From Actinopolymorpha alba DSM 45243 (lineage in GTDB: Bacteria > Actinomycetota > Actinomycetes > Propionibacteriales > Actinopolymorphaceae), in contig NZ_KB892744.1 in the NCBI RefSeq assembly GCF_000373925.1, positions 1-64,000 on the forward strand: 64,000 nt of DNA. Direction: 5' to 3'. Each line of letters starts with the position of its first letter. Position 1 is the first letter of the stretch. The notes under the pieces are model-generated. The model was not told the DNA's origin, did no database searches, and saw only the letters and a list, made by a program, of their open reading frames with translations. Below, piece after piece: positions 6,815-30,433 of the stretch. Position numbers and translations under genes: made by a program.

Positions 6815-7303
6815 TCAGACGGCCACGAACGGACCCGCGGGTGCCGTGAGGCTGAGGTAACGGCCCTCGATCGTGGTGAGCGGGACGCGAACGAACGTGA
6901 CGGCATCGGGGCTCCGCCGTTGTATACCCAATCGTGACAGCCGGGCGATCTCGTTTGGTTCCTCCACGATCCTGGCTTGGCCGACGGCCGCGACATACCA
7001 CCCGTGGTCGCCTTGGTCGATGTGGTCGACTTCGAGCGCCACAACCGAATTGCCGAGGGCGATGCCAAGCCTGGAATCCGAAGCGATCAGGAATACGGCA
7101 GCGTCCCTGTCGAGCCGGAAGTCCACGGGTTCGACCGCGGGGACCGCATTGTCGGTGAACACGATACGGCCGAGGCGCGCGTTCTCGAGCAGGCGTAGGC
7201 ATTCGAGCAGCGGAATTCTCTCCGACGCCTCAACCCCATCCATGCGCTCGACGTCTGCCGTTGTCCAGGCCACGTCCCCCGCGGTGATGTGAGCGGTCTT
7301 CAT
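6815..7303 (-). CDS. pyridoxamine 5-prime-phosphate oxidase family protein
   Basis: Protein of 162 residues with the split-barrel pattern LECLRLLENARLGRIVFTD followed by VEPVDFRLDRDAAVFLIASD near residues 33-80. These are small FMN- or F420-binding proteins, usually not true PdxH. The start at 7303 overlaps the stop of the glucosidase gene by four bases (ATGA), so the two are translationally coupled. Its position between the glucosidase and the sensor kinase suggests a shared stress or redox programme; the substrate is unknown. Confidence 0.8.
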   Translation of the reverse strand: MKTAHITAGDVAWTTADVERMDGVEASERIPLLECLRLLENARLGRIVFTDNAVPAVEPVDFRLDRDAAVFLIASDSRLGIALGNSVVALEVDHIDQGDHGWYVAAVGQARIVEEPNEIARLSRLGIQRRSPDAVTFVRVPLTTIEGRYLSLTAPAGPFVAV

Positions 7304-9147
7304 CGGAGTTCCTCGTTGGTCCCGTCACTCGTAACCAGCCACCAGGCGGCGGTGTTGGCAGGCATCTTCTCGCCAACATCGGAGTCGCTGCGAAGTATCA
7401 GTTCGCCGTCGATGGGGGAGGCGATCGGCCGGTCGGAGCAGTTGACCACGCAGGCGAGGTCGCCGTGGGTGAATGCCAGAACGCCGGGCTCGCTCGGCAG
7501 CCACCGCAGCTCGCCAGCTGATTCGGGGGAATCATGCCGCGCGGCCGAGAGCTGGCGACGCAGGGCGATCGCTTTGCGATACAGCCGCAGTGTCGAGTCG
7601 CCGTCGCGCAGCTGCTCGTCCACGGAAAGGTCGGCGAACCAGGCGGGCTGCGGCAGCCACGGGGTGCTGGAAGCCGAGTCCGGGGAGAACCCGAGCGAGC
7701 CCTTACCAGAGGTCCACGGCAACGGGACCCGGCAGCCGTCCCGGCCGCGCCGTGCACCGCCGGAGCGGTGGAACATCGGGTCGGTCAGCAACTCGACCGG
7801 CAGGTCCACGACCTCGGGCAGGCCCAGCTCCTCACCCTGATACAAGTACGCCGACCCCGGTAGCGCGAGCATCAGCAGCGCGGCAGCCCGTGCGCGGGCC
7901 TTGCCAAGCTCGACATCGCCCGCATCAGCACCGGGAGCGCCACCGGCGTACCGCGTAACCGAACGCGGCATGTCGTGGTTGTTGAGCACCCAGGTCACCA
8001 CCGAATCAGATGCGGCAACGGTGCCCAGCCCGCGATCGATCACCTTCGACAGCGACTGTTCGTTCCAGGCGGCGTGCAGGAAGTCGAAGAAGAACGTCTG
8101 GTGCAACTCGTCAGGCCGCTGGTACTGCGCCAGCTGCTCCGGGTCACGCAGACCAACCTCGCCGATCAGCGCCCGTTCCCTGCCGGTCCGTTCGGTGTAC
8201 TCGTCGGCGATCGCCCGCCACCGGCGCCACACCTCGTGCACCTCCGCCTGGTTCCAGGCGTAAGGGTTGACCGGATCGCCGGTCAGCTCGTCGTCGATGG
8301 CCCTCTCGTGGTCCGGCAGCCCGTCCCGCTTGTGCAATCCGTGCGCGACATCGATCCGCAGACCGTCCACACCCCGGTCGAGCCAGAACCGCAGCACCCG
8401 CTCGAAGTAGGCAGAGACGTCGAGGTTCCGCCAGTTGAAGTCCGGCTGATCCTTGGAGAACGTGTGCAGATACCACTGACCCGGGGAACCGTCCGGCTCG
8501 CTCACCCGCTGCCAGGCCGACCCACCGAAGATCGAACGCCAGTTGTTCGGCGGCAGTTCACCATGTTCACCCCGACCGTCGGCGAAGTGGAAGCGGGTAC
8601 GCTCCGGGCTTCCCGGCCCCGCAGCCAGCGCCGCGGCAAACCACGGATGCTCAACCGAGCAGTGATTCGGCACCACATCGATGATCACCCGCATGTGCAG
8701 CCGGTGAGCCTCACGCACCAGCCGGTCGAAAGACTCGAGGGTGCCGTAATCGGGATCCACCGCGCAGTAGTCGGCCACGTCATAACCGTGATCGCGCTGC
8801 GGCGAAGCGTAGAACGGGTTCAGCCAGAGCCCGTCGACTCCCAGATCCCGCAGGTAGGGAAGCTTCGCCCGTACACCGTACAGATCGCCGACACCGTCGC
8901 CGTCGGCATCATGAAAGCTGCGCACGTACACCTGGTAGATCACAGCGTTCCGCCACCAGCCCAGGTGGCGATCCACATCCTGAGGGCGACCCCGGACCGC
9001 CGTCACGTCGTCGGGGAAGTTGATGGAGCGCGGCCCGAATTCCGGAGAGCCGTCCTGGATCCAGGCGCGGCGATCCTCTAGCCAGCGTCGACGAGACGTG
9101 CGGCGCGATTTCGCTTGGAGAGTCATCGGGGACCGTCCTTTGGTCAT
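7300..9147 (-). CDS. GH13 alpha-glucosidase / oligo-1,6-glucosidase
   Basis: Protein of 615 residues carrying the GH13 motifs in order. DVVPNH is region I. GLRIDVAH holds the nucleophile Asp266. LIGEVGL holds the acid/base Glu330. NNHDMPRS holds the transition-state Asp392. The barrel starts near residue 85 (WWRNAVIYQVYVRSF), as in intracellular alpha-glucosidases or dextran glucosidases. About 80 extra basic residues lie at the N-terminus with no export signal. The ATG at 9126 has a better ribosome site (AAAGGA) than 9147 and may be the true start. A CATTGG/CCAATG inverted repeat lies just upstream. It is followed by the coupled flavin-binding protein. Confidence 0.9.
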   Translation of the reverse strand: MTKGRSPMTLQAKSRRTSRRRWLEDRRAWIQDGSPEFGPRSINFPDDVTAVRGRPQDVDRHLGWWRNAVIYQVYVRSFHDADGDGVGDLYGVRAKLPYLRDLGVDGLWLNPFYASPQRDHGYDVADYCAVDPDYGTLESFDRLVREAHRLHMRVIIDVVPNHCSVEHPWFAAALAAGPGSPERTRFHFADGRGEHGELPPNNWRSIFGGSAWQRVSEPDGSPGQWYLHTFSKDQPDFNWRNLDVSAYFERVLRFWLDRGVDGLRIDVAHGLHKRDGLPDHERAIDDELTGDPVNPYAWNQAEVHEVWRRWRAIADEYTERTGRERALIGEVGLRDPEQLAQYQRPDELHQTFFFDFLHAAWNEQSLSKVIDRGLGTVAASDSVVTWVLNNHDMPRSVTRYAGGAPGADAGDVELGKARARAAALLMLALPGSAYLYQGEELGLPEVVDLPVELLTDPMFHRSGGARRGRDGCRVPLPWTSGKGSLGFSPDSASSTPWLPQPAWFADLSVDEQLRDGDSTLRLYRKAIALRRQLSAARHDSPESAGELRWLPSEPGVLAFTHGDLACVVNCSDRPIASPIDGELILRSDSDVGEKMPANTAAWWLVTSDGTNEELR

Positions 9148-17362: not shown

Positions 17363-18284
<922 letters not shown>

Positions 18285-18651: not shown

Positions 18652-19085
18652 CAATTCTCCGTCGAATCGGTTTGGTGGTCGTCGAGAAGCTTGATGATGC
18701 GTGCGCTGATGTTGCCGAGAGCAACGGTGCCAAGTTCGCCGAGGCCGTTGAAAAGCGGGTCGCGGATCTCGTGACGTTGAGAGCGAAGCACTCGGCCGAC
18801 GAGCAGCCGCCCCTCGTTGGTCAGTGTGGCTTCGGATGCGCGACGCCCGCCGGTCGTGGGGCGGCTGTGACGAGCCCTTGGCGTTCGAGCGCGGTGAGAG
18901 CGTGGCTGATGCGGCTCTGGGAGAAGCGGAGGCTGTCGGCGAGGCTCTTCAGCGCCAGGGTCTGGTTGTCGGCGGCGCTGAGGAGCACAAGGAGCTTGAA
19001 GTGGCCGTGCGGGATTCCTCCGTCACGTTGCGCCTGCCGTTCGAGGGCGGCCTCGAGAAGGTGCCGATCGTCGCCGAACGCAACC
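18652..19085 (-). pseudogene. MarR-family regulator, truncated and frameshifted
   Basis: The minus strand reads RHLLEAALERQAQRDGGIPH, GHFKLLVLLSAADNQTLALK and SLADSLRFSQSRISHALTAL ERQGLVT, a MarR winged helix. It shifts frame near 18850 and continues RRASEATLTNEGRLLV and on to the stop at 18652. The N-terminal start is lost at the junction with the binding-protein fragment at about 19086. Two independent lesions make it non-functional. Confidence 0.65.
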
Positions 19086-19978
19086 GATATTTCGTGGGAC
19101 TTATGGGACTCGGCGTTAACACAGAGCGGCAATACCCGAACTACTTCGCGATGATACCCACCGGACCAAACCCCAGCTCTGCGCTCACAGAAGGTTTCTT
19201 CGAACTCGCCGCCCGGCAGGTACCGCGTCCCTGCACCGTGGCCTTCGTTTCAGCGGACGCGGAATTCGCCTACAACCCCATCATCGGTGCTGCGGAGAAC
19301 GCCAGAAAGTACGGATTCACCGTCGTCGACGAGGAAACCTATCAGCTGTCGACCAGCGAGTTCACTCCGATCATCGACTCCGTGGCCAGCAAGGACCCGG
19401 ACCTGCTGCTGCTGTGCTCCTACCTCGACGACTCGATCGGCCTGGTCCAGGCGCTGCGCAGCAGCGACTGGACACCGAAGATGGTCGGCGGGGCCATGAT
19501 CGGCCCTCAATCGACAGCGGTGAAAAGCGCACTCGGGCCGCTTCTGAACGGGCTGGTGAACTACGAGTACTGGCTACCCGTACCAAGCATGATGTTCACC
19601 GGCGTGGAGTCTCTCATGAAGACCTACCAGCTTCGGGCGCCAGCCGAGAACGCTGATCTGATCGGTTCCTACATGGCTCCCCAGGCGTACGCACAGATGC
19701 AGGTCATCGAACAAGCCGTCACCGCAACCGGAGGCCTGGACGATCAGGTGTTGGCGCAATACACCCGAAGGGAGTCGTTCGACACCGTTGTCGGTGCGGT
19801 CAAATTTGGGATAGGGGGCGAGTGGGAGCATCCCCGCGTCATCCAGGTGCAGTTTCAGAACGTCACCGACGCCGACTCGGAACAATTCAAGCACTCATAC
19901 ACGCAGGTCGTCGTCGCCCCAGCCGAATACACATCAGGCGAATTCCACTACCCCTATCCCGCAGGTGTTGCCGAATAG
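19086..19978 (+). pseudogene. ABC transporter substrate-binding protein, C-terminal fragment
   Basis: About 297 codons without a native start: NRYFVGLMGLGVNTERQYPN, then YFAMIPTGPNPSSALTEGFF, CTVAFVSADAEFAYNPIIGA, and further, ending YPYPAGVAE. It matches the second half of periplasmic type-I (branched-chain amino-acid or amide) binding proteins. The signal peptide and first lobe are missing. The frame is fused to antisense MarR sequence upstream, so it reads open but has no export signal. Confidence 0.7.
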
Positions 19979-20105: not shown

Positions 20106-21299
20106 TCAGCTGCTGACAATGGCCGGATGGAGATGTTTTGTCAGAGAGCGGACGGCGTCCCGGCCCGCACGGTTAGCGCCGACAGTGGATTGTGAGGGGC
20201 CGAACCCGATGAGATGTACCCGGGGGTCGGCAGCGACCTGGGTGCCTCGCATCTCGATCCCACCGCGCTCGTTGCGCAACGTCAGTGGGTCGAGGTGCCC
20301 GAGTGCCGCTCTGAATCCAGTCGCCCAGAGGATCGTGTCGACGGGGGTGAGTGTTCCATCCGCGTTTCGGACTCCCTCAGGTTCGATCTGTGTGAACATC
20401 GGTCGTCGGACGAGCGCGCCACGTTTCTTCGCGGCGAGTGCGTAGGGGGTCCAGGAGAGATGCGTGTAGGAGACGACGCTGCCGGTCAGGTTGCCTGCTT
20501 CGACGTCCGCGGTGACCTTGGAGATCACGTCACGCCCTTCGACCTCCGGGGCGAAGCCGCCGTCGCGGAAGATCGGTTCCCGGCGCGTGTACCAAAACAC
20601 TTCCGCTACCTGGGAGATTTCTTCGAGTTGCTGGACGGCTGAGATTCCCCCACCTACGAGGGCGACCCGCTGCCCGGTGAACTCGTCTAGCGAGGTGTAG
20701 TCCTTGGTGTGGAGCTGACGCCCGGCGAAGCTCTCCTGCCCGGGATAGGCGGGCACCGTCGGGTTGGTCCATGTCCCGGTTGCGTTGATGACCGCTCGTG
20801 CCGCCCAGGTGCCGCTGTCGGAGTCGATCAGGAGTTCACCGTCGGGCTCGTCGTCGGCGCGGGTTGCCGATGTGACGGTGACGGGCCGCAGGATCGGCAA
20901 CCGCATCTGCTGCTCGAACGCTGCGAAGTACGCGGGCACCGCCTGACGTGCCGGCGCGGCCGGATCAACGGGCGTCTGCCGAAACCCCGGCAGGTCGAAG
21001 ATGCCGTTGACAGTCGCCATCGTGAGGGACTCCCACCGGTGCAGCCAAGCTCCACCGGGCCTGTCTTCGGCATCGAGTATCACGAAGCTGCGGTCGGCGC
21101 CGGGCTCGGCGAGCGCGCTGGCGAATCCGCGCCGGTTCAGGTGGTAGCCGGCTGACAGCCCCGCTTGTCCGGCACCGATCACAACCACGGTTGCTCGGCG
21201 GCTCACGCCGCATTCCGCTGCTGTGCCCATGCCGCTGGGCCGGAGCTCGGCATGGCCGGCATATCGGTCCCGCCTGGGCGACTCGTGACCAGAAGGCAT
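20106..21299 (-). CDS. flavin-dependent monooxygenase (FAD/NADPH two-dinucleotide-fold type)
   Basis: Protein of up to 397 residues. The FAD fingerprint VVVIGAGQAGLSAGYHLNRR is near residue 37, and the second NAD(P)H fold, VALVGGGISAVQ, near residue 205. The ATG-region motif (TILWATGFRAALGHL) is near 320. This is the layout of flavin-containing monooxygenases and related thioreductase-like oxidases (CzcO/YpdA group). The N-terminal 20 residues are not conserved in type, so the ATG at 21230 may be the true start. It is the first of three co-oriented minus-strand genes. Confidence 0.85.
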   Translation of the reverse strand: MPSGHESPRRDRYAGHAELRPSGMGTAAECGVSRRATVVVIGAGQAGLSAGYHLNRRGFASALAEPGADRSFVILDAEDRPGGAWLHRWESLTMATVNGIFDLPGFRQTPVDPAAPARQAVPAYFAAFEQQMRLPILRPVTVTSATRADDEPDGELLIDSDSGTWAARAVINATGTWTNPTVPAYPGQESFAGRQLHTKDYTSLDEFTGQRVALVGGGISAVQQLEEISQVAEVFWYTRREPIFRDGGFAPEVEGRDVISKVTADVEAGNLTGSVVSYTHLSWTPYALAAKKRGALVRRPMFTQIEPEGVRNADGTLTPVDTILWATGFRAALGHLDPLTLRNERGGIEMRGTQVAADPRVHLIGFGPSQSTVGANRAGRDAVRSLTKHLHPAIVSS

Positions 21300-21377: not shown

Positions 21378-22334
21378 TCAGCCGATCGCGGCCTTCAGCG
21401 CGTCGGCGTTCTCGGTCGCCCACGTACGGAAGTCCCGCAGGGCGGGGTTGAGGCGGCGGAGCTCGTCGAGGTCGCGGGCGCCGGTGAACTGGGCGTCGAA
21501 GTCGCCGTAGTACTGGAACATATTCGCGACCTCTAGCGCAGCGGGGATCGGGAACGTGCGGAACGTGTCATACGGGACGGCATCGAACCGGACGGTCTCG
21601 CCGATGACCTCGCCGAGGATGTCCGCGTACTCGGCGCCGGTGAGGTGGTCGCCGGCCAGGCTCACGGTCCGCCCGACATAGGTGTCTCCAGCGGCGAGGA
21701 TGGCGAACGCGGTACGGCCGATGTCGTTGACGTCAACGCCGGCGAGGCGCTTGCCGGACTCGAGCGGGAGCGTGAGCGCGAGCACGCCGTCCTCCCCGCG
21801 GCGAGGCCCGACGCCGTCGATGAAGCCCTGGTAGAAGAACGTAGTGTTCAGGAATGTCGTGGGCACCCCGGCGTCGGTGAAGAAGCGGTTCCCTTCACCC
21901 TTGGCATCGAAATGGGGCACGTTGTAGGCGTCCTGCAGGACGGGCATGCGAGGGTCGCTGACCGGCAGCAGATCGCGGGTGTCCTCGAGAGTGGACCACA
22001 CCACGTGGGAGAGCTTCGTGGATGCCGAGGCCGCGGCGAGGTTCGCGATCTCCTGCGTCTCCTGTGCGGCTGAACCGTGCGCCCAGAAGTTGGTGACGAA
22101 GAACGCCCCGTGGGCACCCGCGAACGCTGTCTCGAGAGTGGCTGGGTGGGTGAAGTCGGCGCGGACGACCGCCGCGCCGCGGGCGGCGAGTGCCAATGCG
22201 GCCGGGGACTGCGGATCGCGGGTGAGGGCGCGTACGGCGAAGCGCTGCTGCGGGTCCTCCAAGAGCGCGGTGATCGCACCCCCGCCCTGGGATCCGGTGG
22301 CACCGGCGACGACGATGATCGGCTTGCTGGTCAT
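21378..22334 (-). CDS. NmrA/HSCARG-like NAD(P)-binding protein
   Basis: Protein of 318 residues starting TSKPIIVVAGATGSQGGGAI with the GATGxQGG dinucleotide motif of NmrA-like atypical short-chain dehydrogenases. The usual Tyr-x3-Lys catalytic pair is not obvious. NmrA-type members often sense NADP(H) balance rather than catalyse a reaction. It lies between the monooxygenase and the MarR gene on the same strand, with 50-80 base gaps, so an operon read from the MarR promoter is likely. Confidence 0.85.
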   Translation of the reverse strand: MTSKPIIVVAGATGSQGGGAITALLEDPQQRFAVRALTRDPQSPAALALAARGAAVVRADFTHPATLETAFAGAHGAFFVTNFWAHGSAAQETQEIANLAAASASTKLSHVVWSTLEDTRDLLPVSDPRMPVLQDAYNVPHFDAKGEGNRFFTDAGVPTTFLNTTFFYQGFIDGVGPRRGEDGVLALTLPLESGKRLAGVDVNDIGRTAFAILAAGDTYVGRTVSLAGDHLTGAEYADILGEVIGETVRFDAVPYDTFRTFPIPAALEVANMFQYYGDFDAQFTGARDLDELRRLNPALRDFRTWATENADALKAAIG

Positions 22335-22386: not shown

Positions 22387-22872
22387 TCAGGGCTGATCAG
22401 GGGCCGCGTCGAGGTTCAGGTGGCTGCGCATGGCCGCTGCGGCCTCGCCCAGATGGGCGAGTTGCTGAGGCGTGAACGCGTCGACGAAGACGTCCTTGAT
22501 TGCCCGAAGGTGGGGGCGGGTGCTCGCGCGGAAGGCGCGGGAACCCTCCTCGGTGAGGACGACGCGCGCGCCGCGGGCGTCCTCCGCGCAGGGTTCGCGG
22601 CGCACCAGGCCTCGTTTCTCCATTCGGCCGAGCTGGCCGGACAGGCGGCTGCGTTCCCACTCGATGTGCGCGGCGAGCTCCGATGACCGCAACGCTTTCC
22701 CCTTCGCCTCATTCAGCGCGAGGAGCACCCTGTAGTCCCCACTCGACAGCTGCGAGTCCTGCTGCAGCCGGGACTCGATGCGGGCGCGAACGATCTCGAA
22801 CGTCTCGATGTGTGCCCGCCAGATCGCGAGTTCTTCGCTCGTGGGGAGCCGTCGACTCGGCGCTGTGCCCAT
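22387..22872 (-). CDS. MarR-family transcriptional regulator
   Basis: Protein of 161 residues. The winged helix-turn-helix has SSGDYRVLLALNEAKGKALR, then SSELAAHIEWERSRLSGQLG and RMEKRGLVRREPCAEDARGA, the standard MarR wing. It is divergent from the LLM oxidoreductase operon across a symmetrical promoter/operator at 22888-22929, which it very likely binds. Autoregulation and redox-linked control of both directions is the simplest reading; the ligand is unknown. Confidence 0.9.
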   Translation of the reverse strand: MGTAPSRRLPTSEELAIWRAHIETFEIVRARIESRLQQDSQLSSGDYRVLLALNEAKGKALRSSELAAHIEWERSRLSGQLGRMEKRGLVRREPCAEDARGARVVLTEEGSRAFRASTRPHLRAIKDVFVDAFTPQQLAHLGEAAAAMRSHLNLDAAPDQP

Positions 22873-22887
22873 CGCCCCTCCTCGGTA

Positions 22888-22929
22888 GTTGACATGTGAA
22901 CAATATGGCTACATGATTCACGTGTCAAC
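22888..22929. promoter_or_regulatory. symmetrical divergent promoter-operator
   Basis: GTTGACATGTGAA (22888-22900) and TTCACGTGTCAAC (22917-22929) are inverted with one mismatch. Each arm contains a TTGACA -35 box: minus-strand TTGACA-17-TATTGT and plus-strand TTGACA-17-CATGAT. A regulator bound to the arms would cover both -35 elements at once. The MarR protein encoded next to it is the obvious ligand. Confidence 0.75.
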
Positions 22930-23015
22930 TAGATGTGGAGGGTGTCGATCGCGCGGCATTCGCTCGGATTGATCGCCGAGACCGAGACTCAACGAAGACT
23001 TTGAAGGTGCACAAG

Positions 23016-24086
23016 ATGGATGTTTCGCAGATCGAGTTCGGTATCGACAGCTTCGGAGACCGGCCCCGTGACGACCGGGGGGAGATCGTCTCGCACGCGC
23101 AGGCGATCCGCGCGGCGGTGACCGAGGCGATCCTGGCCGATCAGATCGGCATCGACGTGGTCGCGTTGGGCGAGCACCACCGGCCGGAGTATGCGATCTC
23201 AAGCCCGGAAACGGTGCTGGCAGGCATCGCGACCGCCACGAAGCGCATCCGGCTCGCCTCGGGGGTGACGGTGCTGTCTTCGGACGACCCGGTGCGCGTG
23301 TTCCAACGATTCGCGACCGTGGACGCGCTTTCCAGTGGCCGTGCCGAGGTGATCCTCGGACGGGGCTCGTTCACCGAGTCGTTCCCGCTGTTCGGGTACG
23401 ACCTGAAGGACTACGAGGTTCTGTTCGAGGAGAAGATCCACCTGTTCCACCGACTCCTGGACGAGACGCCGGTCACCTGGGAAGGCACCACCCGTGCCGC
23501 TCTGCGCGATGCGGACGTGTACCCGAAGACCGATTCTGGACGTCTCAGTACCTGGGTGGGAGTCGGCGGGTCACCGCAGTCGGTGGTCCGCACCGCCCAC
23601 TACGGGTTCCGGCTCATGCTCGCCATCATCGGCGGCGCTCCCGATCGGTTCGCTCCCTACGTTGACCTGTACCGGCGGGCGAGCGAGCAGCTTGGCACCA
23701 CCGCACAGCCGGTCGGGATGCACTCGCCCGGCTTCGTCGCCGCCACCGACGATGAAGCCAAGGAGCTGTTCTACCCCGGGTACAGGGAGATCCGTGACCG
23801 GATCGGGGCGCTGCGCGGCTGGCCGCCGATCCATCGGCCAGAATTCGACGCCGAGGTGGAACGCGGTTCGCTGTATGTCGGCTCGGTCGAGACTGTCGCG
23901 GCGAAGATCGCCCACGCGATCCAGGTGCTGGATGCGGGCCGGTTCGACATGATCTACTCCGCCGTCGGCACCGTTTCCGCCAGCGCACGACTGCGTTCGG
24001 TCGAGTTGTACGGCACCCAGGTCATTCCCCGGGTCCGCGAGCTTCTGGCCGAACAGTCCGTCGTCGCGGCAGAGGCGACACGATGA
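23016..24086 (+). CDS. LLM-class flavin-dependent oxidoreductase (luciferase-like)
   Basis: Protein of 356 residues from the ATG at 23016 ([17 protein letters not shown]), with AAGGTG upstream. Luciferase-like TIM-barrel features are present: [60 protein letters not shown] and [16 protein letters not shown]. The GRGS..S.P..G signature fits the FMN-dependent alkanal-monooxygenase-like branch. Its stop overlaps the start of the reductase-like gene (ATGA). It is the first gene of a translationally coupled triplet under the MarR operator. Confidence 0.88.
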
Positions 24087-24754
24087 CCACCCCCGTGGCC
24101 ACCATCGGGATCCTGGGGGCCGGAAAGGTCGGCACCGTCCTGGCGCGCCTGGCGGTCGCCGCCGGCTATCGGGTGCTCGTTTCCGGATCCGGTGACCCCG
24201 CCAAGATCGCGCTGACCATCGAGGTCCTCACCCCGGGCGCGACCGCCGTGTGGCCGGCCGAGGCCGCGGACGCTGCCGACGTGGTGATCCTCGCGCTCCC
24301 GCTCAGTAAGCACCGCAATCTCCCGGTCCCGGAGCTGCGAGGGAAGCTGGTCGTGGATGCGATGAACCACTGGTGGGAGATCGATGGTCCTCGCGACACG
24401 GTCGTTCCGCCGGGGATCTCCTCGAGCGAACTCGTACAGAAGTTTCTGACGGGCGCGCGAGTTGTCAAAGCGCTCAACCATATGGGCTACCACGATCTTG
24501 AGGATGAGGCTCACCACGGAGGCAGCCCTGGGCGTAAGGCGATCGCAATTGCCGGTGACTCGCCCGAGGATCTCGCTGTCGTGTCGGAGCTGATCGACGC
24601 GCTCGGGTTCAACGCGCTCCCCATCGGCGACCTCGCTGCGGGCGCTCGGCTCGAGCCCGGCACCCCTGCATTCGGAGCCAATGTCGACGCCGCCCAGCTT
24701 CGCGCTCTCACCAGCATCCCTGCTCCGGCGTCTTACGAAAGGACAGTGAGATGA
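24083..24754 (+). CDS. NADPH-dependent F420 reductase-like NAD(P)-binding protein
   Basis: Protein of 223 residues. [20 protein letters not shown] is the GxGxxG dinucleotide fold, with [13 protein letters not shown] and [15 protein letters not shown] following. This matches the F420 reductase/coenzyme-reduction family (PF03807) and could supply reduced cofactor to the adjacent LLM enzyme. It overlaps its neighbours by four bases at both ends (ATGA), showing tight coupling. Whether it uses F420 or flavin cannot be read from the sequence. Confidence 0.85.
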
Positions 24755-25143
24755 CTCAAGGATTGATCGACAACACCGGCGCCTCCGTTACGGTCAAGCT
24801 CGATATCGCTAGCCCGATCAGCTCCTACACCGTGAGCCTCACCAATGAATCACCTGTCGGCAGGGCCGACTTCGTCGACTCTCCCGATGTGGACGAAGAC
24901 CGGATCTTCTTCCACACCGAGGTGAATCAGGAGTTTGGGGGACGAGGTCTGGCCGAGCTGCTGGTGCGTGAGGCCCTCGCAGACAGCATTCGCAAGAAGC
25001 TCACCGTCGTGCCCGTGTGCCCGCTGTTTGCTCGCCATCTGAGGATGCATGGCGATGAATTCGTCGCGAATGGCGGCGTGTTCCGCCAGCCGACACCTGC
25101 CGACATCGCACTGGTCACGCGCGCTGCACGGAGTGGGTCATGA
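24751..25143 (+). CDS. small GNAT-like N-acetyltransferase (NATD1/YjdJ type)
   Basis: Protein of 130 residues. [20 protein letters not shown] is the acetyl-CoA-binding segment (QxxGxG/A variant), followed by [19 protein letters not shown], the C-P-x3-x-x-x-L-R/H-x-H ending typical of the short NATD1-like acetyltransferases. Last gene of the coupled triplet. Its substrate is unknown. It may protect against the product of the oxidoreductase pair. Confidence 0.8.
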
Positions 25144-25277: not shown

Positions 25278-26606
25278 ATGCGGTCAGTCATTCCCGACTA
25301 TCTGACCGAGGTACTCGGAGATGTAGAGACGGACACCTCCGGAGATCCAGCGGGGTACATCCCCGAGCTCGCAGCAGCGGATCCCGAGCGCCTCGGCGCG
25401 GTCTTCGCCACTGTTGACGGCGAGGTCTACGGCGCCGGTGACATCGATACCGAGTTCACGATCCAATCGATCTCCAAGCCGTTCACGTATGCATTGGCAC
25501 TGTCTGATCGCGGATTCGATCCTGTGCTCGCCAAAGTCGGGGTTGAGCCATCGGGAGAGGCGTTCAACCAGATCTCCCTCGAAAGCGATACGGGGCGCCC
25601 CCTCAATCCAATGATCAACGCCGGTGCGATCACCGCTCACTCGCTGGCGGGCTCGGAGGACCTGAATCCGACAGAGCGCGTGGAGCGCGTGGTCCACGGC
25701 CTCTCGGCGTTCGCTGGTCGTCGGCTGACGATAGATGAGGTGGTGTGCGCGTCGGAACTGGAGCACGCGCACCGCAACCTCGCCATCGCACACATGCTCC
25801 GCAGCTACAACATCCTCACCGAGGACCCGAGGGCCATCGTCGACGGTTACATTCGCCAGTGCTCCGTGCTCGTCACGGCGCGAGATCTGGCCATAATGGC
25901 CGCGACGTTGGCCAACCGCGGGGTGAACCCTCTCTCGGGTGAGCAGGTGATACGCGAACCGGTGGTGCGTCAGGTGCTGAGCGTCATGGCCACCTGCGGA
26001 ATGTATGACGCGGCCGGTGACTGGGCGACCCAGGTCGGCATTCCGGCGAAGAGCGGCGTGGCTGGGGGCCTGATCGGCGCGCTCCCCGGCCAGATCGGCA
26101 TCGCAACGTTCTCACCACGACTGGATCCCCACGGGAACAGCGTTCGAGGAGTGTCGCTGTTCGAACGATTCTCCTCCGATATGGGTCTGCATGTGATGGA
26201 GGTCCCGGCCGCTGCGCGTGCGGTCGTACGATCCAACCACGTCGTCGGCAGCGGACCGAACGCGATCCGGGTCCTCCAACTGCAAGGTGGGATCCGCTTT
26301 GCCGGAGCCGAGAGAATCGTTCGAGAGACCGTGGAGACCGCGCCCGCGGAAGCCAGGGTCGTGCTGGACCTCACGATGGTCTATTCGATCGATGACGTGT
26401 CACGACGCATGTTGCTGGAGGTCGCGCGTCGGCTCACGCTGGACGGCCACGAGGTCTACCTCGTCGACCCGGAATCGATCATCCCCGACCCCGATCCCGG
26501 TGATGGCGGCCGAGTCACGGTCGTCAGCGACGTGGAACATGTCGTGAGTCCGCCGCACAAGGCGGCCCAGCGCAGCAGCCAGCCCGGAAGAGAGGCCGAC
26601 GCATGA
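25278..26606 (+). CDS. glsA: glutaminase fused to a STAS domain
   Basis: Protein of 442 residues. Residues 1-310 are a serine-dependent beta-lactamase-fold glutaminase: FTIQSISKPFTYALALSD holds the catalytic Ser-x-x-Lys, with INAGAITAHSL, KSGVAGGLIGALPGQIG and further family blocks. Residues 330-430 form a STAS domain (VLQLQGGIRFAGAERIVRET, VVLDLTMVYSIDDVSRRMLL). It hydrolyses glutamine to glutamate and ammonia; glutaminases of this type can give acid resistance. GGAGGA precedes the ATG. Its stop overlaps the next start (ATGA). Confidence 0.92.
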   Translation: MRSVIPDYLTEVLGDVETDTSGDPAGYIPELAAADPERLGAVFATVDGEVYGAGDIDTEFTIQSISKPFTYALALSDRGFDPVLAKVGVEPSGEAFNQISLESDTGRPLNPMINAGAITAHSLAGSEDLNPTERVERVVHGLSAFAGRRLTIDEVVCASELEHAHRNLAIAHMLRSYNILTEDPRAIVDGYIRQCSVLVTARDLAIMAATLANRGVNPLSGEQVIREPVVRQVLSVMATCGMYDAAGDWATQVGIPAKSGVAGGLIGALPGQIGIATFSPRLDPHGNSVRGVSLFERFSSDMGLHVMEVPAAARAVVRSNHVVGSGPNAIRVLQLQGGIRFAGAERIVRETVETAPAEARVVLDLTMVYSIDDVSRRMLLEVARRLTLDGHEVYLVDPESIIPDPDPGDGGRVTVVSDVEHVVSPPHKAAQRSSQPGREADA

Positions 26607-27982
26607 GCGGCGAGCCAGTCGCACGCGTTCGCGCATCAGGGAACGTCGCCGCGACCGCCCGCGACGGTCGTCGTGCGCGGAAGCAGGCACCGCGTCGAGC
26701 CGCGGCGCATTGGGACCCCAGCGTCCGTCACATGAGAGCCATCGACCGGCTGCGCGCACAAGAGGCCGTTCGCGACCCCGAGCTCCTGCCGTTGCGGTAT
26801 GCCCGGATGGCGTTCTCGCCATGGACCTACTTGCGCGGTGCGGCCGCCGTCATGGCAGCCGATCTCGCTGCGGCACCGCACTCAGGATTGACGGTTCAGA
26901 TGTGCGGCGACGCGCACATCCTCAATTTCGGGCTATGGGCCTCTCCTGAGCGACAACTGCTCTTCGACGCCCGCGACTTCGACGAAACCCTCCCGGGGCC
27001 CTTCGAGTGGGATCTGAAGCGTTTCGCGACCAGCATCTATGTGCTCGCAGACTCGGAACAGCTCCAGGGCTCGTGTGGCGAAGACGCAGCCGCCGCAGCG
27101 GTCGAAGGCTACCGCAAGGCGATGCGAAGGTACGCCCGGATGGGGGAGCTGGATGTCTGGTACGACCTGATCACGTCAGATGTGCCGTTGAGAGGTCTGA
27201 CCTCAGAGTTCGCCGAAGCCGCCTCTCGCGCCATTGAGAAGCAGTCGAGGAAGCGGACACATCACGGGGTGGCACAGCAACTCGTCTCCGAAGAGAACGG
27301 GCGGCACCGCATCATCTTGGATCCGATGAAGCGCATAGACGAAGGTCTGAGCCACGAGCAGCGGGTCCGGGCCTATGAACAGGTCTACGACACATACCTT
27401 GCCTCGATTCCGCCCCACCTGCGTCGACTCGTCGATCGATTCAAACGCGTCGATTCCGTACGGCAGATCGTGGGCGTGGGCAGCGTCGGTATGCGCGTCT
27501 GGCTACACCTGCTGGAAGGCGATAGCGGCCTACAGCCGTTGTTCTCCCAGGCCAAGCAGGCAACAGCATCGGTCTACGAGGAGTTCCTGGGTCCCAGCGA
27601 GTTCACGAACCACGGCGAGCGCGTCGTCGTCGGCCAACGCCTCATGCAGTCAGCAAGCGACATCTTCCTCGGCCATATGCGCGTTGACGGCAAGGACTAC
27701 TACGTACGCCAGTTTCGCGACATGAAGATCATCCCCAGCGGAAAGCAGATATCGGGATACCTACCCCAGTTCGCTGCGGCTTGCGGCCACGCGTTGGCAA
27801 AGTCGCATGCTCGCAGCGGCGACCCCGAAGCGATCGCCGGCTACATCGGCAAAGGGAATGCTTTCGCTGACGGCATCCTCCGCTATGCCCGCGCCTACGC
27901 CGAGCAGACCCACACGGATCACGCTGATCTACTCACCGCTATCGCGAACAACGAGGTGAGGGCCGCTGAACGCGGATGGTAG
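26603..27982 (+). CDS. DUF2252 family protein (kinase-like fold)
   Basis: Protein of 459 residues with the DUF2252 hallmark blocks MAFSPWTYLRGAAAVMAADL, VQMCGDAHILNFGLWASPER, LLFDARDFDETLPGPFEWDL, KRFATS and YYVRQFRDMK. The CGDxHxxNFG and FDxNDFDE pattern resembles the catalytic and metal-binding loops of aminoglycoside-phosphotransferase-like kinases. The substrate is not known. It is coupled to glutaminase by a four-base overlap, so the two are made together. Confidence 0.88.
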   Translation: MSGEPVARVRASGNVAATARDGRRARKQAPRRAAAHWDPSVRHMRAIDRLRAQEAVRDPELLPLRYARMAFSPWTYLRGAAAVMAADLAAAPHSGLTVQMCGDAHILNFGLWASPERQLLFDARDFDETLPGPFEWDLKRFATSIYVLADSEQLQGSCGEDAAAAAVEGYRKAMRRYARMGELDVWYDLITSDVPLRGLTSEFAEAASRAIEKQSRKRTHHGVAQQLVSEENGRHRIILDPMKRIDEGLSHEQRVRAYEQVYDTYLASIPPHLRRLVDRFKRVDSVRQIVGVGSVGMRVWLHLLEGDSGLQPLFSQAKQATASVYEEFLGPSEFTNHGERVVVGQRLMQSASDIFLGHMRVDGKDYYVRQFRDMKIIPSGKQISGYLPQFAAACGHALAKSHARSGDPEAIAGYIGKGNAFADGILRYARAYAEQTHTDHADLLTAIANNEVRAAERGW

Positions 27983-28048
27983 AGCGTGTGCGGCATTCCG
28001 GTGAGCACTCATAGGCGCTCTGCCTCTGCGAGCGCAGGAGGATACGAC

Positions 28049-28815
28049 ATGTCGTGGAGCACGCGCGAGCTCGCTGATCTGGCGGGCACGACGGTGAATA
28101 CCGTTCGCCACTACCACCGTCTCGGTCTGCTCGATGAACCGGAGCGCCGGTACAACGGATACAAGCAGTACGAGGTGCGGCATCTGGTGAGTCTCTTGCG
28201 CATCCGGATCTCGGTGTACCACTCTCGCAGATCGGTGCTGTCAGTGCGGGGGGTGACAGCGCAGCGGATGCTTTGCGCGACCTCGACGCGGAACTGCAGA
28301 TGAGCATTGAGCACTTGCAGAAGGCCCGGGCGGATATCGCAGCGATCCTTCGCGACCAAGCGCCAGCAGACGTACCCGCTGGGTTCGAGTCCGTGGCATC
28401 TCGACTGTCCGAGGCGGACAGCTCGGTGATCCACATCTACACGCAGCTATACGACGAGCGTGCATTGGCGGACGTTCAGAAGATGGTGGAGGCCGACACC
28501 GACGATGTCGCTGTGGACATCGACCGTTTGCCGGCGGACGCGGATGAGGAGACGCGGCAGCGTCTGGTCGAGAGGCTCGCGTCGACTCTCGCGCGGAATC
28601 TCATCGACTATCCCTGGTTGAGCGACCCTGCTTCGCGCCTGTCCAAGAGCGGATACGTCACGGCGCAGACGTTCGTGGACGCCGTGCGGGAGCTGTACAA
28701 CCCTGCGCAGCTGGACGTGCTCGCCCGTGCCAACACCCTCGCGAACGACCAAGTGCGCGCCATGCGGGAGGAGAGTAGAAAGGCGGCCGGGGAACGCACT
28801 CCTCACGGGGCTTGA
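28049..28815 (+). pseudogene. MerR-family regulator interrupted by a short deletion
   Basis: AGGAGGA leads to ATGTCG at 28049. STRELADLAGTTVNTVRHYH and RLGLLDEPERRYNGYKQYEV RHLVSLLRIR form a clear MerR DNA-binding domain. Near 28205 the frame is lost. The expected continuation (LGVPLSQIGAVSAGGDSAAD ALRDLDAELQ) is found in another frame and runs to 28815 through a long helical ligand domain ending RKAAGERTPHGA. A loss of about ten bases around CGCATCCGG/ATCTCGG explains it. As sequenced, only a truncated repressor could be made. Confidence 0.75.
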
Positions 28816-29027
28816 CCCTGTTGCGAGAACACGGTCTTTACTGAACCCACGTCGAGGTCACCCTCGTCGACTCGGCGAGTGAGGACATCCCGTTTGTGAT
28901 CCCCATCGAGAACCCTGCGCGATGACCTCGTGGCCCGTCGGAGTGGGTGGCGCCAGATCGATCGTCGCGGGGCTCGCCACGGCTGCCGAGAACTACGGTC
29001 GATGACGCGATGAGAAGGGAATTCGCA

Positions 29028-29783
29028 ATGACTGAACAGTACGGAGACCCGAGTCCGGCTTCTTCGGGGGAGCCGGACGAGACAGTAACACTTGGGAAGC
29101 CGACGTTGGCGGAGGATCTCCTCCTGCTTCTGTTCCAGCCGAATTCCGGTCTGCAGTCTGGCACCGGAAGCATCGCGGGGGAGGGCACGCTCTTCTATGT
29201 GCTCGCCGGGGCGGTGCTCGCCGACCTCGGGCTTGGCGACCACGTCCGGACCGGTACCGGGCGGATGGGAACGACGACAGTGGAGGCTGTCGCTGACAAC
29301 CCGCCGTCGGATCACCTTCTCCGCGCGAGCTGGGAGTATGTCGCCGACAAGCCTCGGGGAGTGCAGACCGTCCTTGCCGCGACGGGGCCGACCTTGCGTG
29401 AACCGCTGCTGGATCGACTCATCGAGCGCGGAGACCTGCGCCGCAGCACGCGCAAGGCACTCGGCCTGTTCCACACCTCAGTGCTCGCGGAAGGCGACAG
29501 CGGGCGCCGTGATGGACTGCTCGCCGACGTCCGTGCCGTGCTCGTCGACGGCGCGGAACCCACGCCCCGCGTCGTGGCGCTCGCCGCGCTCCTTAACGGC
29601 AGCGGAACTCTGCCACAGTTCGACCGAGACATCCCGTGGACCTCACTGGTCATCGCCCGCGCCGAGGAACTCAAGAACGGAAACTGGGGTGCCGGCGCTG
29701 CGGCTGAGGCTGTGGCGCGCACCGTCACCGCGACCATCGTCAACAACGTCATCATCGCCGCAGCCGTGCTCCCGCGCGGCTAG
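29028..29783 (+). CDS. GOLPH3/VPS74-like protein
   Basis: Protein of 251 residues from the ATG at 29028, with GAGAAGGGA upstream. LGKPTLAEDLLLLLFQPNSG opens the domain. Then comes GEGTLFYVLAGAVLADLGLG, a helical middle and a C-terminal hydrophobic hairpin (VTATIVNNVIIAAAVLPRG). This is the GPP34/GOLPH3 fold (PF05719), which binds phosphoinositides in eukaryotes and is common but uncharacterised in actinomycetes. It follows the broken merR gene and overlaps the SDR gene stop-to-stop. A membrane-surface role is likely. Confidence 0.85.
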   Translation: MTEQYGDPSPASSGEPDETVTLGKPTLAEDLLLLLFQPNSGLQSGTGSIAGEGTLFYVLAGAVLADLGLGDHVRTGTGRMGTTTVEAVADNPPSDHLLRASWEYVADKPRGVQTVLAATGPTLREPLLDRLIERGDLRRSTRKALGLFHTSVLAEGDSGRRDGLLADVRAVLVDGAEPTPRVVALAALLNGSGTLPQFDRDIPWTSLVIARAEELKNGNWGAGAAAEAVARTVTATIVNNVIIAAAVLPRG

Positions 29784-30433
29784 CTGCGGATGTTGTTGAG
29801 CACTGCTTCCGGGATCGCGGTGGCGCCAGTGTTGATTTCGAGGATCTGGCGGCGAATCCGGGGCTCGTGGACGATCTCTGTCAGCGTCGCAGCCACGTCG
29901 TCACGACTGATCTGGTCGTGGAGTTCGGCCGGCCCCATTGACACGCTCCCGTGCCCGGGCTCGTCGGTTAGGAGCGACGGCCGGAGAATGACCCAGTCAA
30001 GGCCGGTGCGTGTGAGCGACACGTCGGCCCGTTTCTTCACGGCGAAGTAGTATTCGACGTCGTCATCGAGGTCGCGTTCGCGCCAAGACTCCGGATACAC
30101 CGAAACGAGAACGAATCGCCGCACGTCTGCCAGAAGGGCCGCTTCCGCGGCTCGTTCCACTCCCTCACCGTCGACCGCGGCGGTGACGTCTCGGCTTCCC
30201 CCGTTGGAGCCTGCGCTGTAGACGATCACGTCCTGACCGGTGAACGCTTCGGCAAGTTCGTCGACGGTCAGAGTCGCGAGATCGCCGATGACAGTTCGGA
30301 TGCCGAGATCCTGGAGAGGGTGCTGCTGCTCAGGTCTCCGAACGAGCCCGGTCACATCGTCGCCGTGAGCGGCGAGTTTTCGAGCGAGCAACCCTCCGAC
30401 AGCTCCGGTGATACCCACCACGAATACTCGCAT
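29780..30433 (-). CDS. NAD(P)-binding protein, SDR/NmrA-like
   Basis: Protein of 217 residues from the ATG at 30433 (MRVFVVGITGAVGGLLARKL). The frame stays open upstream, but the G-x-x-G-x-x-G nucleotide motif sits right at this start. VIVYSAGSNGGSRDVTAAVD and FVLVSVYPESW follow, as in YwnB/BVR-B-like epimerases. The usual Tyr-Lys pair is replaced by YYFAVKKRAD. Converges with the GOLPH3-like gene, overlapping by four bases. Confidence 0.82.
   Translation of the reverse strand: MRVFVVGITGAVGGLLARKLAAHGDDVTGLVRRPEQQHPLQDLGIRTVIGDLATLTVDELAEAFTGQDVIVYSAGSNGGSRDVTAAVDGEGVERAAEAALLADVRRFVLVSVYPESWRERDLDDDVEYYFAVKKRADVSLTRTGLDWVILRPSLLTDEPGHGSVSMGPAELHDQISRDDVAATLTEIVHEPRIRRQILEINTGATAIPEAVLNNIRS

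Follow-up and report, generated by a model that had tools for sequence, protein, structure and literature searches.

Glutaminase-STAS, DUF2252, MerR and GPP34 genes of Actinopolymorpha alba as the putative distal part of a MarR-controlled operon

Introduction

In divergent MarR-operator operons for chemical stress, the MarR gene is transcribed away from the genes opposite it and a palindromic site lies over both promoters; in acid-resistance glutaminase systems, a glutamine/glutamate antiporter or permease is found beside the glutaminase. This work deals with four genes of Actinopolymorpha alba DSM 45243, coding for a glutaminase fused to a STAS domain, a DUF2252 protein, a MerR-type regulator and a GPP34 (GOLPH3/VPS74-like) protein. 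They lie in a stretch of 64,000 nucleotides (positions 1 to 64,000 of contig NZ_KB892744.1; “the window”, whose coordinates are used below), and had originally been predicted to form an acid or envelope-stress module.

DUF2252 (PF10009) is placed in the Pfam protein-kinase clan, with flipped lobes, in the available part of one source (PMC9758233). The prediction also held that no role had been assigned to GOLPH3 proteins of bacteria, a statement which is outdated: the part available of a further report (PMC12402492) describes SCO4440, the GOLPH3-like protein of Streptomyces coelicolor, as affecting peptidoglycan cross-links and wall-deficient cells. This was the one role for a bacterial GPP34 protein found in the literature searched.

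Results

We give about an even chance to the following reading: the four genes lie at the distal end of an operon that was acquired horizontally, is controlled by MarR and deals with chemical stress from reactive or aromatic compounds. The architecture of this operon is well supported, and the function is inferred from the enzyme classes and the MarR control. The interval first assigned to the group (25278-29783) was too narrow, and the transcription unit most likely begins at about 22.9 kb: the monooxygenase, F420_oxidored-domain and GNAT genes are directly upstream of the glutaminase gene, with consecutive ATGA overlaps among the three, and a divergent leftward MarR-NmrA-flavoprotein operon faces them across an inverted repeat. 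The features are as follows (genomes and loci compared are given as G and L numbers; L132 and L158 belong to genome G611).

23016..24086, + strand: LLM-class flavin monooxygenase (Atu2307/SP_0267 family), opening the rightward operon (PF00296; TIGR03858)
24083..24754, + strand: F420_oxidored-domain NADP-binding protein (PF03807, E 5e-16), ATGA overlap with the preceding gene
24751..25143, + strand: small GNAT-like acetyltransferase (PF14542, E 3e-14), ATGA overlap with the preceding gene
25278..26606, + strand: glutaminase with C-terminal STAS fusion, catalytic residues kept (PF04960, E 2e-114; PF01740, E 1e-5)
26603..27982, + strand: DUF2252, kinase-clan protein with permuted motif order (PF10009, E 3e-118, 395.9 bits)
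28049..28815, + strand: MerR-type regulator gene, disrupted, in two frames (PF00376, E 5e-11; alignment to the G611 MerR)
29028..29783, + strand: GPP34 (GOLPH3/VPS74-like), a divergent second copy in the genome (PF05719, E 5e-37, 128.5 bits)
22886..22931, no strand: putative MarR operator, inverted repeat TAGTTGACATGTGAA - 16 nt - TTCACGTGTCAACTA (repeat search and recurrence)
22387..22872, - strand: MarR-family regulator, divergent from the monooxygenase operon (PF12802, E 2e-12)
21378..22334, - strand: NmrA-like NAD(P)-binding protein (PF05368, E 4e-44; 84% homologue in L158)
20106..21188, - strand: flavoprotein (Pyr_redox_3/FMO-like), leftward with the NmrA and MarR genes (80% homologue in the second G611 MarR locus, L158)
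17436..18284, + strand: alpha/beta hydrolase (PF00561, E 6e-38; 79% identical to the G611 copy, 10840-11682 of L132)

The original family assignments of the glutaminase-STAS, DUF2252 and GPP34 proteins were borne out, as was the coupling of the first two genes, the stop codon of one and the start codon of the other sharing ATGA; the MerR gene retained its N-terminal domain at 28049 and was not intact, with a deletion of 10 bp.

DUF2252 was sought in 394 genomes of the class (149 with a match at E 1e-60), 248 genomes of the order of G611 and 22 of the family of G572, samples which overlap and are not summed. The close DUF2252 clade had four members: the window, G572 (88% identity), G826 (82%) and G611 (79%), one of them from the order sample; the 22 genomes of the G572 family held no further one. 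Glutaminase-STAS adjoined DUF2252, with the ATGA overlap, in all four genomes of this clade, and neither it nor the other genes of the group were neighbours at any of the 18 other DUF2252 loci (L133-L150, about 60% identity or less), whose surroundings were, by eye, heterogeneous and without a shared theme. The predicted recurrence of the four families held in part. In G611 the rightward genes are ordered as in the window plus one (glutaminase, DUF2252, alpha/beta hydrolase, MerR, GPP34), with ATGA overlaps of glutaminase/DUF2252 and MerR/GPP34; G572 keeps three (glutaminase, DUF2252, GPP34, with no MerR between); and G826 keeps two, running from the monooxygenase through DUF2252 and then ending.

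This variation at the 3' end bears on a second reading, of which we are doubtful, in which DUF2252 is the last gene of the MarR operon and MerR-GPP34, as a membrane unit of its own under MerR control, was added on. The lack of MerR-GPP34 in G826, the ATGA overlap of these two genes in G611, and the gaps that precede MerR (66 bp) and GPP34 (212 bp) in the window would fit such a unit, but GPP34 is downstream and in the same orientation in three of the four close-clade genomes, with no intervening MerR in G572, and no promoter-like site was seen before MerR or GPP34 in a scan for the sigma-70 consensus only.

Away from the close clade the association was scarce. Within 5 kb of glutaminase-STAS, in the best 80 of 586 confirmed loci (several of them short contigs), DUF2252 was found at none and GPP34 at one, and DUF2252 was also missing from the rest of all 80 loci, some of which are truncated; in Agromyces (L020) a GPP34 fragment lies 6.4 kb from the glutaminase. 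All the genes compared were under purifying selection (dN/dS 0.11-0.46), DUF2252 having values of 0.11-0.20 at a synonymous divergence of about 0.4-1.1 (a simple Nei-Gojobori count, with synonymous sites partly saturated). Because of the recurrence in the close clade and these ratios, set against the counts of 0/80 and 1/80, the four-gene group is real and selected, not a product of chance, but rare.

It is unlikely, in our view, that DUF2252, MerR and GPP34 are unrelated cargo travelling by chance with the glutaminase operon in a recombining island. Such cargo would match the rare and patchy distribution, the degraded MerR and GPP34 genes of several genomes and the group II intron maturase fragment nearby; against it stand the ATGA overlap kept in 4/4 genomes despite the synonymous divergence and low DUF2252 dN/dS just given, and the presence of GPP34 downstream of a glutaminase-hydrolase pair in Streptomyces sp. 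F001 also.

Other genes recurred more often beside glutaminase-STAS. Within 5 kb of the 16 close glutaminase-STAS genes there were LLM (7), hydrolase (6), GNAT (6), pirin (5), CMD (5), F420-like (5) and MarR (4) genes, against 0 for each of these in control regions (n=25); the other 64 glutaminase loci had GNAT 4, CMD 3, LLM 3, pirin 2, F420-like 1, MarR 1 and hydrolase 0. These counts include self-scoring, several reference proteins being drawn from the counted loci, and one reference MarR translation held a stop and was used unchanged. In Streptomyces sp. F001 (L014) the order was monooxygenase, F420-like, GNAT, glutaminase, hydrolase and GPP34, followed by homologues of window genes 29780-30433 and 18836-19978, so the hydrolase comes after the glutaminase there and between DUF2252 and MerR in G611. 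Hydrolase-like and MerR-like remnants follow the glutaminase of Nocardiopsis ansamitocini (L018) in the G611 order (MerR by tblastn, hydrolase by eye), and in Brachybacterium L044 a distant glutaminase-STAS gene comes after genes for MarR (81% identical to that of the window), a CMD protein, pirin and GNAT. The window monooxygenase scored 484.7 bits with TIGR03858 (cut-off 462); the F420_oxidored-domain protein is not proven to be an F420 reductase, because it reached only 39 bits with npdG (cut-off 150). Overall, the data support a recurrent core of redox/detoxification enzymes with glutaminase-STAS and GNAT, plus pirin and CMD in relatives, with DUF2252 and MerR-GPP34 as optional additions. 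The idea of four genes as a functional group stood as regards order, ATGA coupling and purifying selection; the unit is larger, and its conserved part is the upstream monooxygenase operon with its MarR operator.

The putative operator, a 15-base inverted repeat (TAGTTGACATGTGAA / TTCACGTGTCAACTA, spacing 16 bases) between the divergent MarR and monooxygenase genes, overlaps two opposed promoter-like sites; three such sites were found in 8.5 kb, 1.1 being expected. When one mismatch at most was allowed, a 14-base half-site pattern matched 10 times in 2.11 Mb of fetched DNA; 200 scrambled versions of it averaged 0.06 matches. Nine of the 10 were upstream of the monooxygenase (window, L014, L017, L018, L132) or lay between a MarR gene and the glutaminase, immediately before the latter (L019); the tenth was near a response-regulator gene in L017. 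Besides the window, four named species and G611 thus have the half-site at this operon. The motif was built from the window, L014 and L018, leaving L017, L019 and L132 as independent confirmations. The palindrome is the only such site in the window's whole genome; G611 has a half-site at its glutaminase operon (left half only) and a palindrome at its second MarR locus; neither half-site nor palindrome was present in the whole genomes of G572 and G826. Homologues of the window MarR occur at the same place in G611 (79%), at the second G611 site (80%) and in L044. MarR of this type and this operator thus go together, with glutaminase-STAS in the presumed regulon in several lineages and not in all. 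MarR is a probable repressor in both directions.

The second G611 locus (L158, contig 1) has its own MarR-NmrA-flavoprotein set, 80-84% identical to that of the window, with a full palindromic operator, and faces a different LLM gene, which suggests that MarR of this type controls LLM genes more generally.

The glutaminase residues S64, K67, N114, E160, N167 and Y243, catalytic residues of serine-dependent glutaminases (S64 and K67 as SxxK), were invariant in 82/82 aligned rows (the window and 81 of 83 loci yielding a usable row), and the protein scored 675 bits with NF002134 (cut-off 557). The best-matching solved structure was 3agd, together with six more PDB entries (phmmer E 4.5e-111, two stretches); 3agd is the salt-tolerant glutaminase of the Micrococcus luteus K-3 type. 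The C-terminal STAS domain (PF01740, 25.7 bits, cut-off 22.6) did not fit a phosphoswitch of the SpoIIAA type: the presumed phosphorylatable position, 374, after a conserved Asp, is V374 in the window and Ser in 3/82 rows, and position 375 is Ser in 4/82.

An acid or envelope stress module, in which ammonia from glutamine raises the pH, STAS senses and GPP34 sits on the membrane, is very unlikely. The invariant catalytic residues of the glutaminase agree with it, but the genes that accompany the glutaminase code for redox and detoxification enzymes, the genes scanned included no family of amino-acid antiporters or decarboxylases, the SpoIIAA-type phosphoserine is absent, and the PtdIns(4)P site of GPP34 is mostly lost (see below); neither the acid nor the envelope role has specific support here. 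A Pfam scan of the called genes of 16.7-30.7 kb showed no glutamine/glutamate antiporter or permease beside the glutaminase.

In DUF2252, GDxHxxN (102-108), DFDE (125-128), GxGSxG (291-296) and K318, which are kinase-like motifs, were invariant in 32/32 rows, one of 32 hits having been dropped from the alignment for short coverage. A sequence search gave no solved structure for DUF2252, and the AlphaFold2 model, made without an alignment, was too low in confidence to use (mean pLDDT 35.6).

The MerR gene is split just after the helix-turn-helix (frame of 28049) by a deletion of 10 bases relative to the 251-aa MerR of G611, its C-terminal part (28273-28815) being in another frame; an assembly error could in principle account for this, 10 bp being unusual for such an error.

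A profile of 7 bacterial GPP34 proteins matched GOLPH3 (E 3e-15) and Vps74 (E 1e-11). The residues W81, R90, R171 and R174, given as PtdIns(4)P contacts of GOLPH3 in the accessible part of the source (PMC13408441), correspond to E52, A60, P121 and R124 in the window protein, so that one of these four published contacts (R174) is kept, which argues against the envelope placement proposed through GPP34. A GPP34 model made with one relative had a mean pLDDT of 37.3, too low to use. The other GPP34 of the genome (contig 62; L098 8326-9009) is more typical, with a neighbourhood common to a congener (L153), and looks like the resident copy. The G572 gene (L131, about 8150-8900) has a frame change near the 3' end, which shortens the protein, as well as a stretch of N close to the start of the gene. 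A small hydrophobic protein, a possible membrane partner of bacterial GPP34, is encoded beside GPP34 in G348 (L096 8936-9475) and beside the GPP34 fragment in Agromyces humatus (L020 17105-17689), where it had no Pfam match.

As for the origin of the locus, the glutaminase was absent from 5/5 congeners and the cluster has relatives in, among others, Nocardia, Streptomyces, Nocardiopsis and Pseudactinotalea, which indicates that the operon was acquired by horizontal transfer. Contig C38 may be a contaminant (estimated contamination of the genome 3.69%). For window gene 7300-9126 the best paralogue, at 72%, is one within its own genome, full-length matches in congeners reaching 64% at most, and another window gene was without a close congener. 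The glutaminase matched 208 plasmid records, all below 60% identity, and GPP34 matched none, so that the search yielded no plasmid carrier. Remnants of a group II intron maturase (PF08388, 16734-17111) and of an integrase core domain (PF00665, 11135-11449) are traces of former mobile elements close to the cluster. An oddly located SAICAR synthetase gene (PF01259, 14952-15938), in a stretch of GC 0.58 against 0.66 for the window, may be an additional copy or one gained by transfer. PADLOC gave weak generic hits only, and a phage-defence reading was therefore set aside.

Discussion

The operon proposed here would run in the order monooxygenase, NADP-binding oxidoreductase, GNAT, glutaminase-STAS, DUF2252, (MerR) and GPP34, opposite MarR, NmrA and flavoprotein genes, and would share one palindromic operator with them. 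A reactive or aromatic compound would free MarR from the inverted repeat and both operons would be switched on; the flavin enzymes and Rossmann oxidoreductases, joined in relatives by the alpha/beta hydrolase, CMD and pirin-like proteins, would transform the compound, and GNAT may acetylate a product. From the glutaminase would come glutamate and ammonia, serving in the response as a nitrogen source, an osmolyte or a buffer; DUF2252, produced in step with the glutaminase, could be a small-molecule or protein kinase; and MerR-GPP34 would be an optional membrane-side add-on, once with its own switch, broken here.

Several observations weigh against this reading. MarR control is not universal: G572 retains glutaminase-DUF2252-GPP34 with neither monooxygenase nor MarR nor operator, while a TetR-like gene is present and the operator missing in G826; in G611, the operator at this operon consists of the left half only. 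The MerR/GPP34 add-ons may be dispensable cargo because they have decayed in several genomes: MerR is broken in the window and a remnant in Nocardiopsis (L018), and a frameshift cuts GPP34 short in G572, only a fragment of it being left in Agromyces (L020). Further promoters could lie in the gaps that precede the glutaminase (134 bp) and GPP34 (212 bp), and no member of the operon has a known chemical substrate.

A more specific and speculative form of the chemical-stress operon, which we regard as improbable, would make DUF2252 a permuted kinase, translationally coupled with the STAS-glutaminase. Its substrate would be either the glutaminase itself or something that the monooxygenase pathway produces, and the MarR-induced response would also bring a bacterial GOLPH3 homologue to the membrane. 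If true, this would be the first functional setting for DUF2252, and the second for bacterial GPP34. DUF2252 is widespread yet seldom mentioned in the literature searched, and both families would gain an inducible, testable setting in a compact operon whose operator is defined. The data also suggest that some actinobacterial STAS-glutaminases are part of a chemical-stress regulon and not of plain nitrogen metabolism.

In the literature searched, which took in few subscription papers, there was no description of glutaminase-STAS, DUF2252 and GPP34 combined in a MarR operon, or of this operon itself. The motif order and invariant residues of the window DUF2252 would suit the permuted kinase-like fold of its clan, and only the clade of the window was seen beside glutaminase-STAS. 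The window glutaminase resembles the M. luteus K-3 type over both the glutaminase and the C-terminal part, but its gene sits in a monooxygenase operon and overlaps DUF2252. The window GPP34 and SCO4440 are both actinobacterial members of PF05719, likened here by family; SCO4440 adjoins the carboxypeptidase SCO4439 according to the available part of its description, whereas the window GPP34, a divergent second copy, adjoins glutaminase, DUF2252 and MerR genes. With the divergent MarR-operator operons for chemical stress, the locus shares the divergent MarR gene, a palindrome over the promoters, and flavin and Rossmann oxidoreductases, and it differs from them by having glutaminase-STAS, DUF2252 and GPP34 as members.

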